From: Methylocystis sp. ATCC 49242
Lineage (GTDB): Bacteria; Pseudomonadota; Alphaproteobacteria; Rhizobiales; Beijerinckiaceae
NCBI RefSeq assembly: GCF_000188155.2
Contig: NZ_KE124774.1
Span: 2,424,356 to 2,488,355, forward strand
DNA: 64,000 nt
Direction of reading: 5' to 3'
The stretch's first letter is position 1, and each line of letters starts with the position of its first letter. This document shows positions 3,152 through 9,280 of the stretch, one piece after another. The notes beneath the pieces are model-generated. The model worked only from the letters and a program-made list of their open reading frames with translations, did not search any database and was not told the DNA's origin. A program made the position numbers and the translations under genes.

Positions 3152-3777
3152 GACACGAAATCCGCGCGCGCGAAGGATGCGTCGAACGCCGCCTGCAATG
3201 TTTTCTGCGTCAGCGGCGACAGGAACGGCAGGCGGCCGAGAATGCGGACGCCGCCGATGGACGCAATCGTTCGCTGCGCCTGCGCTTCTTCGTCGCCGAC
3301 GAAAGCGATTCCATGGATCGAAATGTCGCGGCGACGCAGCGCCTCGATCGTCAGCAGGCTGTGATTGATCGTGCCGAGCGCGGTGCGCGCAACCAGAATG
3401 ACGGGCAGGCGCCAGCGCGCCAGGACATCGATCGTCAGGACGTCGTCGGTCAGCGGAACCATCACCCCGCCCGCCGTCTCGATAATGAGGTCGCCGTCGC
3501 AGACGGGCGGCCCGAGCCTCGCCACATCGATCTCGACGCCCTCGGCGCGCGCGGAAATATGCGGCGAGGCAGGCAGACGCAGTCGCCAGGCCTCGGGGAT
3601 GATGCGATCCGGCGAAGCGCCGGAAAGCCGCGCGACGGTCTGTGAATCCGTCTCGTCCTCGAGACCCGATTGCACGGGCTTCCAGTAACTGGCGCCGAGC
3701 GCGCCGACGAGCATGGCGGAGACGATCGTCTTGCCGACATTGGTGTCGGTCCCGACGATCACGAATATCTTGCTCAT
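3148..3777 (-). CDS. bioD: Dethiobiotin synthetase
   Basis: BioD closes the ureido ring of dethiobiotin from DAPA, CO2 and ATP. The 209-residue protein opens with the family P-loop GTDTNVGKT at residues 9-17 and has the KPVQSG segment that follows in BioD proteins. The metal and nucleotide-contact motif ETAGGVMVPLT is present. The gene overlaps bioF upstream and bioA downstream by 4 bp on each side, so the three genes are almost certainly one transcript. bioB and bioC are not in the window. Confidence 0.93.
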   Translation of the reverse strand: MSKIFVIVGTDTNVGKTIVSAMLVGALGASYWKPVQSGLEDETDSQTVARLSGASPDRIIPEAWRLRLPASPHISARAEGVEIDVARLGPPVCDGDLIIETAGGVMVPLTDDVLTIDVLARWRLPVILVARTALGTINHSLLTIEALRRRDISIHGIAFVGDEEAQAQRTIASIGGVRILGRLPFLSPLTQKTLQAAFDASFARADFVS

Positions 3778-5571: not shown

Positions 5572-8337
5572 ATGAACGCTGAAACCCGGCCCGCCGAGCG
5601 GCTTGACTTCAATGTGCGGGGCATGACCTGCGCTTCTTGCGTCGCCCATGTAGAAAAGGCGCTCGTTCACACGCCGGGGGTAACATCGGCGAGCGTCAAT
5701 CTGGCGACGGAACGCGCGGAAGTCGCGCTCGCGCCCGGGGCCGATCCCTCGGCGCTCGTCAAATCCGTGACCAACGCCGGCTATGAGCCCGTCGTCGAAA
5801 CCATCGAGCTCGGCGTCGGCGGCATGACCTGCGCCTCTTGCGTCGCCCATGTCGAAAAGGCGTTGCGCGCCGTTCCCGGCGTATTGGAGGCGACGGTCAA
5901 TCTCGCGACGGAGCGCGCCAGCGTGCGCGCGCTCGCCGGCCCCGGCCTAACGGACAGGCTGCGCCGCGCTGTCGTCGCGGCCGGCTACGAGCCGCGCAGC
6001 GTCGCGACCGACGCCGGCGCGTCGGACCGCGAGCGCGCGCGGCGCGAGGAGGAAATGCGCGCGCTGCGTTTCCGCCTCATCACTTCGGCCATCTTCACGG
6101 CGCCGGTCTTCTTGCTCGAAATGGGCGGGCACATGATCCCGGCCTTTCACCATTGGGTGATGGGGACGATCGGAGAGGAGATGGTCCGCCAGATCTCCTT
6201 CCTCTGCGCGACGATCGTGCTGTTCGGCCCCGGGCTGGTCTTCTTCCTGAAGGGTGTTCCATCACTTTTGCGCGGCCAGCCGGACATGAACGCGCTCGTC
6301 GCGGTTGGAACTTCGAGCGCCTATTTCTATTCCGTCGTCGCCACCTTCATGCCGCATCTGCTGCCGGAAGGCGCGGTGCATGTCTATTACGAAGCGGCGG
6401 TCGTCATCGTGACGCTGATTCTCTTCGGCCGCTTTCTCGAGGCGCGCGCCAAGGGCCGCACCTCGGAAGCCATCCGGGCGCTGGCGCGACTGCAGCCGAA
6501 GACCGCGCGCGTCGAACGCGATGGCGAGACGGTCGACGTCGACATCGATGAAGTTCGCGTCGGCGATATCGTGCTGGTGCGTCCCGGCGAGCGTATTCCA
6601 ACCGACGGCGTCGTGACCGCGGGCGCGTCCCATGTCGACGAATCCATGGTGACCGGCGAACCGGCGCCGGTCGCGAAGACCGTCGGCGCGAGCGTGACCG
6701 GCGCGACGGTCAATGGCGCCGGCGCGTTCTCCTTCCGCGCGACGCGCGTCGGCGCCGACACCACGCTCGCGGGCATCATCCGCATGGTCGAACAGGCGCA
6801 GGGCGCGAAGCTGCCCATCCAGGCGATGGTGGATCGCGTCACCGCGGTCTTCGTGCCGGCGGTGTTCGCGGCGGCGGCGCTCACCTTCGTCATCTGGATG
6901 TTCGTCGGCCCCGAGCCGCGCCTCACCTATGCGTTGGTCAACGCCGTCGCGGTTCTCATCATCGCCTGCCCCTGCGCCATGGGTCTTGCGACTCCGGCGG
7001 CCATCATGACCGGCACGGGCCGCGCGGCGGAGCTCGGTGTGCTTTTCCGCAAGGGCGAGGCGCTGCAGACGCTGCGTGACGTGACCTTGATCGCCTTCGA
7101 CAAGACCGGCACGCTCACTTTCGGCAAGCCGCGGCTGACGGACCTCGTCGCGGCGCCCGGGATGAACGAGGACGAATTGCTGCGGCTGACCGCGGCCGTC
7201 GAGGCGCAGTCGGAGCATCCGGTCGCCGCCGCGATCGTCGCCGCCGCCAGGGATCGCGGCCTTGCGCTCGCGCGGGTCGCCGATTTCGCCTCCATCTCCG
7301 GCATGGGAGTCACGGGCGTCGTCGAGGGCCGCAAGATCGCGGTCGGCGCCGAACGCTACATGACCTCGCTCGGCCTCGATACGAAAGCCTTCGAGGAAAG
7401 CGCGGCCACGCTTTCGGCCGACGGCAAGACGCCCTTCTATGTCGCCGTCGACGGCAGGCTCGGCGCCATCCTTTCGGTCGCGGACGATCTGAAGCCGACG
7501 ACGAAGCCCGCCATCGAAGCGCTGCACACGATCGGCGTGAAAACCGCGATGATCACCGGCGACGACGCGCGCACCGCGAACGCCATCGCCCGCAGGCTCG
7601 GGATCGACGAGGTCGTGGCCGGCGTGATGCCGGACGGCAAGGTCGCGACGCTGGAGCGGCTGCGCGAGAAGAACAAAATCGCCTTCGTCGGCGACGGCGT
7701 GAATGACGCGCCGGCGCTTGCCGCAGCCGACGCCGGCATTGCGATCGGCACGGGCACCGACATTGCGATCGAGGCGGCGGACGTCGTGCTGATGTCGGGC
7801 GATCTGGCCAAGGTGCCCACGGCGCTGGCGCTCTCGCGCGCGACCATGCGCAATATCGCGCAGAATCTCTTCTGGGCCTTCGGCTACAATGTCGTGCTCA
7901 TCCCCGTGGCGGCCGGCGCGCTGTTCCCCATCAATGGCACGCTGCTCTCGCCAATGTTCGGCGCCGCGGCCATGGCGTTGTCGAGCACCTTCGTGCTCAC
8001 CAATGCGCTTCGCCTGCGTCGCTTCAGGCCGCCGGTGATCGACGTGGCCTCGCCCGCCCCGACGATCACGCATGAAAGCGCGGTGCCCGCCGAGGCGCCC
8101 GCGCCCATCGAACAGGACAACAAGGAGGAACCAATGACCACGTTCAATGTGAAGGACATGACCTGCGGCATGTGCGTGAAACATGTCACCAAGGCCGTGC
8201 AGACGGTAGAGCCCGGCGCCGATGTGAAGGTCGATCTTGCGACCGGCAAGGTGGAAGTCAGCCCGGCGCCGAAGGATCCGCAGGCGCTGGCCAACGCCAT
8301 CACCGAGGCTGGCTATCCCGCGCAGGTCGCCGCCTGA
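5572..8337 (+). CDS. copA: Copper-translocating P-type ATPase with extra C-terminal CopZ-like domain
   Basis: This P1B-type ATPase exports Cu+ from the cytoplasm. The 921-residue protein has two N-terminal heavy-metal-binding domains with CASC at residues 20-23 and 87-90, the actuator TGE at 361-363, the transmembrane CPC at 466-468, the phosphorylated Asp510 in DKTGT, the SEHP motif and the hinge GDGVNDAP from 707. An HMA domain (CGMC at 865-868) follows the last membrane helices, which is unusual. The ATG at 5572 is chosen because the upstream part of the frame overlaps the preceding gene and lacks family similarity. In a methanotroph, copper export and delivery matter for pMMO. Confidence 0.95.
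8134..8337 (+). CDS. Possible separately translated CopZ-like copper chaperone (internal start in copA)
   Basis: A strong Shine-Dalgarno AAGGAGG (8122-8128) sits 5 nt before an ATG at 8134, in frame within copA. Starting there gives a 67-residue protein, [14 protein letters not shown]..., which is the normal length of a free CopZ/Atx1 chaperone, with one CxxC metal site. The same residues also end the full CopA. Either the gene makes both products, or an ancestral copA-copZ pair has fused and kept the old ribosome binding site. The second product is inferred and not proven. Confidence 0.5.
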
Positions 8338-8404
8338 CGCGACGGCAATCACGCGCGGCGCAGATGCGCCGCGCGCCATCTTCCCTTTTATCGAAAGCCC
8401 TTCA

Positions 8405-9280
8405 ATGACCCGATCGCTCAGCGGAAAGACGCTTTTCATCACGGGCGCGAGCCGCGGCATCGGACTCGCAATCGCCAATCGCGCCGCGCGCGACGGCGCC
8501 AATGTCGCCATTGCGGCGAAGAGCGTGGCGGAGAACCCGAAAATCCCCGGCACGATCTATACGGCGGCGGCGGAGATCGAGGCCGCCGGCGGCAAGGCGC
8601 TGGCGATACATTGCGACATTCGCTTCGACGATCAGGTCGAGGCGGCTGTCAAGAAGACGGCCGAGACCTTCGGCGGCGTCGACATACTCGTCAACAACGC
8701 CAGCGCCATCGATCTGCGCGGGATCGACATGCTGGAGATGAAGCGCTTCGATCTGATGCATCAGATCAACGCGCGGGGAACCTATCTTTGCGCGAAGATG
8801 GCCCTGCCCTTCCTGCGCAAGGCGGAAAATCCCCACATACTCACCATGTCGCCGCCGCTCGACATGAACCCGAAATGGTTCAGCCCCAACCTCGCCTATA
8901 CAATGGCCAAATACGGCATGAGCCTCGTGACCCTCGGGCTGGCGAGGGATCTCGCGCGCGACGGCGTCGCGGTGAATTCGCTGTGGCCCGAGACGGCGAT
9001 CGCCACCGCCGCAGTCGGCAATCTTCTGGGCGGCGAGGAAGTCATCAGGCGCGCACGCAAGCCGGAGATCGTCGCTGACGCCGCTCATGCAATCCTCACG
9101 CGCCCCTCGCGCGACTGCACCGGCAATTTCTTCGTCGACGTGCGCGTATTGGCGGAGGAAGGCGTGAGCGACCTTGCGCCCTATTCCGTCGATCCCTCGC
9201 TCGATGCGGTGCTCGACTTTTTCCTCGAGGAGCCGATCAGCGCCAATGTTCGCAAATCGGCGTTCCATCCGGGAAAGTAG
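8405..9280 (+). CDS. Short-chain dehydrogenase/reductase (HSDL2-like)
   Basis: The 291-residue protein is an NAD(P)-dependent SDR. It has the Rossmann motif TGASRGIG near residues 13-20, NNAS near residue 98, and a catalytic YTMAKYG (Tyr-x3-Lys) near residue 165. It has a C-terminal stretch typical of the hydroxysteroid-dehydrogenase-like 2 group, where the catalytic Ser position is often replaced (here the preceding motif is TMSPPLD). The substrate is unknown. The ATG at 8405 follows copA by 67 bp and lies in the same direction. Confidence 0.85.
   Translation: MTRSLSGKTLFITGASRGIGLAIANRAARDGANVAIAAKSVAENPKIPGTIYTAAAEIEAAGGKALAIHCDIRFDDQVEAAVKKTAETFGGVDILVNNASAIDLRGIDMLEMKRFDLMHQINARGTYLCAKMALPFLRKAENPHILTMSPPLDMNPKWFSPNLAYTMAKYGMSLVTLGLARDLARDGVAVNSLWPETAIATAAVGNLLGGEEVIRRARKPEIVADAAHAILTRPSRDCTGNFFVDVRVLAEEGVSDLAPYSVDPSLDAVLDFFLEEPISANVRKSAFHPGK

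Follow-up and report, generated by a model that had tools for sequence, protein, structure and literature searches.

We report that the copA gene of Methylocystis sp. ATCC 49242 probably yields two proteins: a copper-exporting P1B-type ATPase and, by internal initiation at an in-frame ATG at position 8134, a free copper chaperone of the CopZ type. This reading is based on comparison of sequences and supposes that copZ became fused to copA yet kept its own Shine–Dalgarno (SD) sequence and start codon. Positions are those of the window, the whole stretch of 64,000 nt that was analyzed. We envisage that copA and the next gene of an ancestral operon, copZ, came to share one reading frame, most simply through loss of the copA stop codon, and that copZ would have retained its SD and start codon after the fusion. 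Initiation at the copA start would then produce the pump with a CopZ domain tethered behind its last membrane helix, and ribosomes binding the AAGGAGG at 8122–8128 would start at the ATG and produce a free CopZ of 67 aa, which may carry Cu(I) to the pump and to other targets. No source of cytosolic CopZ other than this predicted start was detected in the genome. Initiation itself, the ratio of the two products, and any tie to pMMO belong to the predicted part of the scheme, which is built on the SD and ATG, on their conservation against a drifting linker, on relatives whose separate copZ genes have the same start, on the finding of no other CopZ gene in this genome, and on a linker frame that has been kept open.

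A preliminary description of this DNA had pointed out an AAGGAGG followed at a spacing of 5 nt by an in-frame ATG within copA, and this arrangement is confirmed (table 1). It had also placed the CopZ domain behind the last membrane helix, after a linker of 30–40 residues rich in Pro, Ala, and Glu; the domain does lie there, and the 36 intervening residues include 8 Pro, 6 Ala, and 5 Glu. The encoded pump combines the PF00122 and PF00702 domains with N-terminal HMA domains (PF00403), as is characteristic of P1B-type Cu-ATPases, and its translation contains CPC, DKTG, and SEHP motifs, which we take to be marks of this ATPase class. No SD–ATG combination was seen at the edge of the second N-terminal HMA domain, which serves as an inner control. 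The 67 residues behind the internal ATG, earlier equated with a full-length CopZ, indeed form a complete HMA domain when searched in isolation (PF00403, E 1.8e-13, residues 3–61), and separate CopZ proteins of relatives are 67–69 aa long. Such a domain of about 60–70 residues with an MxCxxC motif is of the Atx1-like type, and it resembles both solved small metal-binding proteins and the HMA domains of pumps (2roe, a heavy metal binding protein, E 1.4e-8; 4y2i, a putative copper chaperone, E 8.8e-8).

Table 1. Features of the fused copA–copZ gene, in positions of the window
Feature	Position	Strand	Description and basis
copA–copZ fused reading frame	5572..8337	+	Cu-exporting P1B-type ATPase with C-terminal HMA, 921 aa; start ATG 5572, stop TGA 8335–8337; open frame; Pfam E1-E2_ATPase, three HMA stretches, HAD hydrolase
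N-terminal HMA domain 1 of CopA	5608..5787	+	PF00403 match (whole-genome search)
N-terminal HMA domain 2 of CopA	5815..5991	+	PF00403 match (whole-genome search)
Pro/Ala/Glu-rich linker behind last membrane helix, fast-evolving	8026..8133	+	36 residues; varies in relatives
Shine–Dalgarno AAGGAGG of predicted internal start	8122..8128	+	Read in the sequence; kept in relatives; duplex energy rank 1 of 59
Predicted internal CopZ start codon ATG	8134..8136	+	In copA frame, 5 nt from SD; coincides with start of separate copZ genes
CopZ coding sequence and stop	8134..8337	+	67 aa, HMA, MTCGMC metal motif; PF00403; alignment with separate CopZ of 67–69 aa

Selection on the internal SD and start codon

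The predicted pairing energy with the anti-SD sequence at 8134 (−11.2) is the best among the 59 in-frame internal ATG and GTG codons of the gene (next −8.7, median −2.0). The window contains a single exact AAGGAGG-N5-ATG, and the whole genome has 21, against 3 occurrences of a reversed control pattern; if one mismatch is allowed, the window holds 10 matches versus 1.9 expected. A lone near-match is not rare by chance, and the comparative evidence for an internal start is far stronger than these pattern counts. A scan of positions 7700–8450 for sigma-70 promoter and terminator consensus sequences, the two signal types it covered, found no internal promoter or terminator.

The preliminary description had made its proposal hinge in part on conservation of the SD and ATG wherever the domain is kept, and we found such conservation: all 41 fused loci of Methylocystis and Methylosinus have an SD with GAGG or better, the GAGG lying 5–18 nt ahead of a start codon that is ATG in 40 loci and GTG in one, although these loci share ancestry and the counts are not independent. 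A start codon was sought as ATG or GTG no more than 27 nt from the domain edge. In the 46 fused loci scored in this way it is ATG in 43 and GTG in 3; a 47th fused locus (L093) has an ATG further upstream. In L084, a Met-to-Val change leaves a codon that is still a start (GTG).

The choice of codons in the SD is likewise restricted. Among 26 Methylocystis loci (the synonymous test left out L028–L030), the three SD codons are AAG in 24/24, GAG in 26/26, and GAA in 24/24 cases in which Lys or Glu is present, with zero synonymous steps at all three. By comparison, just 2 of the 48 Lys/Glu columns upstream of them are free of synonymous change and 46 change; ahead of the SD, the linker encodes Glu by GAA 61 times and GAG 41 times, and Lys by AAG 18 times and AAA 9 times. 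In a conservation profile (which left out L028–L030 and L093), nucleotide identity across 28 Methylocystis loci is 0.99 at the SD (−12 to −6) versus 0.67 in the linker (−48 to −15), and across 10 Methylosinus loci it is 0.89 versus 0.53. The five Rhodoblastus fusions have 0.89 at the SD and 0.88 upstream, and since the two values are alike this group provides no independent signal of conservation; its SD consists of GGAG only in 5/5 fusions tested. The start region of the 31 Methylocystis loci has a GC of 0.44 and is much more open than the remainder of the gene, such that a median of 0.6% of windows in the gene are as open (mean z 2.66). When candidate starts are ranked by pairing energy (L093 left out), the predicted start comes first in 28 and second in 3 of these loci; first in 4, second in 4, third in one (L081), and sixth in one (L082) of the 10 Methylosinus loci; and third to seventh of 31–48 in-frame candidates in the five Rhodoblastus loci. 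An SD and start at a domain edge, together with selection that reaches beyond the protein sequence, are both found here and are among the hallmarks of internal-start genes of the Cas11 type.

The linker has drifted in both sequence and length among relatives and measures 19–47 codons in Methylocystis loci. The 4-fold-site tree of 26 fused loci has a length of 11.2 substitutions per site, and 3.65% of single changes in the linker codons produce a stop; by a rough hand estimate, a neutral linker would have acquired about 31 nonsense changes (25 × 3 × 11.2 × 0.0365), and none were seen in the linkers of the fused loci. Given that this frame has been kept open alongside the SD and start, both products, the fused pump and the free CopZ, seem to be under selection.

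The linkers of L017, L019, and L092 read REERSD...ATQ...LLRSARNDE, with a shorter form in L023. The stretch in L017 belongs to a dispersed palindromic repeat with 57 matches in G002 and 61 in G030 (both strands counted), and there are 2 short matches in the genome of Methylocystis sp. ATCC 49242 itself. Within the copA linker the repeat sits in frame and is translated, and it leaves the SD that follows intact.

Separate, overlapping, and fused forms of copA and copZ

Orthologues were searched in 61 genomes (60 relatives and the genome under study); we read the copA–copZ junction in 42 loci. A further 36 loci were examined for the CopZ region, which was read in 35 and is absent from L116. A survey of the family covered 397 genomes with matches of E 1e-12 or better. 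It lists 39 genomes of Methylocystis (genus g1, including M. rosea, M. silviterrae, M. suflitae, and others), of which 30 have the fused form, 5 have a separate CopZ (G003, G007, G008, G012, and G027), and 4 have no match. The 30 genomes contribute 31 fused loci: one Methylocystis metagenome-assembled genome (MAG; G026) has two fused copies, L007 and L037, on different contigs, and a mixed bin is possible. Each of the 10 Methylosinus genomes (g66, including M. sporium DSM 17706, sp. Sm6, and sp. Ce-a6, as well as some MAGs that are labeled otherwise) has a single CopZ match that is always fused. Rhodoblastus (g57) is more varied, with 6 fused, 4 separate, and 1 overlapping form among the 11 genomes with a match; the genes are separate in R. 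acidophilus and R. sphagnicola and fused in sp. BP08 and 17X3.

The separate forms place the chaperone start exactly where the fused gene has its internal ATG. In G003, G008, G012, and G027, the copA stop is followed by an SD and a separate copZ of 67–69 aa, a free CopZ orthologue beside a copper pump gene, and the start of this copZ aligns with the internal Met of the fused genes (MTTF/MATF). The fifth genome, G007, has a copA without a CopZ tail and a free copZ elsewhere. A form between the separate and fused forms of close relatives is found in the Rhodoblastus group, where copZ and copA share an out-of-frame overlap of 14 nt (L104 of G272, 3164–3177). A tree built on the copA core (61 rows, leaving out L084 and L103) requires no fewer than three switches from one of these forms, fused or separate, to the other, with fusion and fission indistinguishable for each switch.

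Among 50 more distant loci (L147–L196), 3 are fused, all from the Rhodoblastus group, and the CopZ frames of the other 47 contain no ATPase part. In another family (f29), 3 of the 11 genomes searched have a fusion; they belong to one genus (g71), all 3 have AAGGAG-N6-ATG at the CopZ start, and two further genomes of that genus gave no match. The CopZ part of these fusions is 41–47% identical by local match, and an independent origin is likely. Wider occurrence was surveyed with full-length copA at strict E-value limits. At the order level, 65 of 297 genomes match, with a fused tail in G531, G501, and G424 in addition to the genome under study; of the 20 stretches that were read, L202–L204 are fused and 17 are not, the remaining matches being judged by their end points only. 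At the class level, 18 of 385 genomes match and the genome under study alone reaches the CopZ part. At the phylum level, 99 of 398 match, and three (G1356, G1330, and G1312) reach query residue 918–920 as judged from match ends, with stops inside. On plasmids 4172 records match, and among the 30 matches listed the alignments end at query residue 819–841.

We consider it probable that copA–copZ is a switchable two-product gene. Several alphaproteobacterial lineages would have moved between separate, overlapping, and fused forms with the SD and start kept, the ratio of the products would be set by translation, and Methylosinus (10/10 genomes) and most Methylocystis would have CopZ only in this hidden form.

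A related arrangement with a different neighbor occurs in two genomes from the wider searches (L217 of G463 and L218 of G528). The last copA codons there encode AAGGAGG, the stop and the next start share the bases ATGA, and the SD of the next gene, a MerR-like regulator, lies inside copA. It is possible that such an arrangement represents a half-way state towards fusions.

Alternative readings of the internal site

The existence of relatives with separate genes makes the fusion of once separate genes likely, and the SD and ATG might then be a dead relic of a recent fusion from which only the fused pump is made. We regard this as very unlikely given that the 26 fused loci span about 11 substitutions per 4-fold site with SD codons that show no synonymous change, and that the linker beside the SD has been scrambled, in some relatives by the dispersed repeat, yet the SD is kept. 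A study in Caulobacter reports that ribosomes pause at internal SD sites and that one internal start was checked by LC-MS (PMC4117421). Internal SD sites can pause ribosomes without starting translation, which counts against an internal start, and an SD some 36 residues past the last helix could slow ribosomes while that helix is inserted. We nevertheless hold a pause site to be similarly improbable: pausing has no need of an ATG or GTG, yet one is kept; L026 and L027, from relatives with separate genes, have the SD behind the copA stop; the copA of G007, which has no CopZ tail, lacks a GAGG in its tail; and the region is unusually unstructured, as starts are.

The remaining readings concern the protein. 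The tethered domain alone might matter, giving the pump a third site of metal binding comparable to the C-terminal domain of Archaeoglobus fulgidus CopA, with the KEE residues kept for their charge; C-terminal metal-binding domains of CopA are reportedly known, and the open linker frame fits this idea. The invariant codon choice in the SD argues otherwise, since Glu and Lys codons are mixed elsewhere in the linker, as does the fact that Methylosinus keeps the SD with other residues, and the kept start codon is left unexplained; we are accordingly more doubtful still of this reading. Least probable of all, in our judgment, is a scheme in which cleavage of the linker by proteases releases CopZ, or in which −1 frameshifting produces it, as it does in E. 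coli copA. A linker rich in Pro, Ala, and Glu may be cleavable, but proteolysis would not preserve an SD and a start codon. Frameshifting has the E. coli precedent, which is mentioned in PMC10187127. This copA, however, has no in-frame X XXY YYZ slippery heptamer, and the combination of such a heptamer with an early −1 stop that makes up an E. coli-type frameshift signal was not found in it. The product of frameshifting would also be N-terminal. Internal initiation at the kept SD and start codon is the reading that we prefer.

Related systems and other HMA genes

In E. coli, Meydan and Drees are each said to have described in 2017 how −1 frameshifting in copA releases the N-terminal domain as a CopZ-like chaperone, CopA(Z). 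The parallel drawn in the preliminary description between this case and the present gene stands for the outcome, in that one copA gene is predicted to give a copper pump and a CopZ-like chaperone, but not for the mechanism: the domain here is C-terminal and would be produced by internal initiation, with no in-frame slippery site. The proposal that internal initiation releases CopZ is itself strongly supported by sequence comparison, through the conserved SD and start and by the unfused relatives whose copZ begins at the same Met. A C-terminal metal-binding domain in Archaeoglobus fulgidus CopA was reportedly described by Agarwal in 2010. The metal-binding domain is at the same end of the copper pump in both proteins; here it is a fused operon neighbor with a predicted start of its own. 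Separate copA–copZ pairs encode the same two proteins in the same order with a stop codon between them instead of a shared frame, and copZ is found behind copA in many Pseudomonas and Stutzerimonas loci. The closest mechanistic likeness is Cas11, which arises by internal in-frame initiation within cas8 and cas10 genes (PMC11899642). In both cases the C-terminal part of the gene of a large protein is also translated alone from an in-frame internal start, as predicted here; the proteins and their function differ, and the present case is distinguished by the separate, overlapping, and fused states among close relatives and by a near-perfect internal SD. In the literature accessible to us (titles and the beginnings of abstracts, with subscription papers mostly outside reach), we found no description of an internal CopZ start in copA.

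Methanotrophs depend on a copper enzyme. Methylosinus trichosporium OB3b is described as having CopA and CueR and lacking CopZ, and an argument about copper storage is built on that statement (PMC5171941). The printed statement should be re-examined, and it would need correction if CopZ is made from within copA. Chaperones of this kind would escape any survey restricted to small ORFs. One survey of 53 Rhizobiales genomes with PF00403 lists CopZ homologues of 67–114 aa in 26 of them (PMC5552934). If the predicted internal start is used, it would constitute a translational route to a pump and a chaperone from one copA that is unlike the frameshifting of E. coli. It would also show clearly that two genes of an operon can fuse while the free product is retained.

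We searched the genome under study and 13 other genomes with fused copA using PF00403, and 13 of these 14 yielded no free gene for a cytosolic CopZ-like protein. In the genome under study, a single further small HMA ORF exceeds the Pfam cut-off; it lies in a mer operon and encodes a MerP that carries a signal peptide. The small HMA ORFs over the cut-off in G018, G006, and G023 are also MerP-like, with signal peptides, and belong to mer operons; matches below the cut-off comprise one short match on C4 of the genome under study and one on C3 of G023. The exception is G020, which has a free 68-aa HMA ORF (MHCEGC; L197, 700–906) that belongs to another HMA group and is preceded by an SD-like stretch. 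A free HMA protein is thus not always missing in genomes with the fusion.

Two further HMA genes were noted in these searches. A 618-aa open frame of the genome under study (L075; G000:C6:2936707-2936889) joins an HMA domain to membrane helices, a cupredoxin-like part, and a LysM-like end, all named by eye; 12 of the 13 other fused genomes have an HMA match within an open frame of 523–602 aa. The HMA ORF of G020 is followed directly behind its stop by a methyltransferase frame, and the 238-aa open frame there, considered as an HMA–methyltransferase, was rejected as such and is instead the free 68-aa ORF and then the methyltransferase frame. In the genome under study (L078; G000:C6:682987-683166) and in G009 (L072), one open frame, of 327 and 322 aa, respectively, combines an HMA domain with a SAM-methyltransferase-like part, so that HMA and methyltransferase form a second HMA pair that is joined in these two genomes and split in G020.
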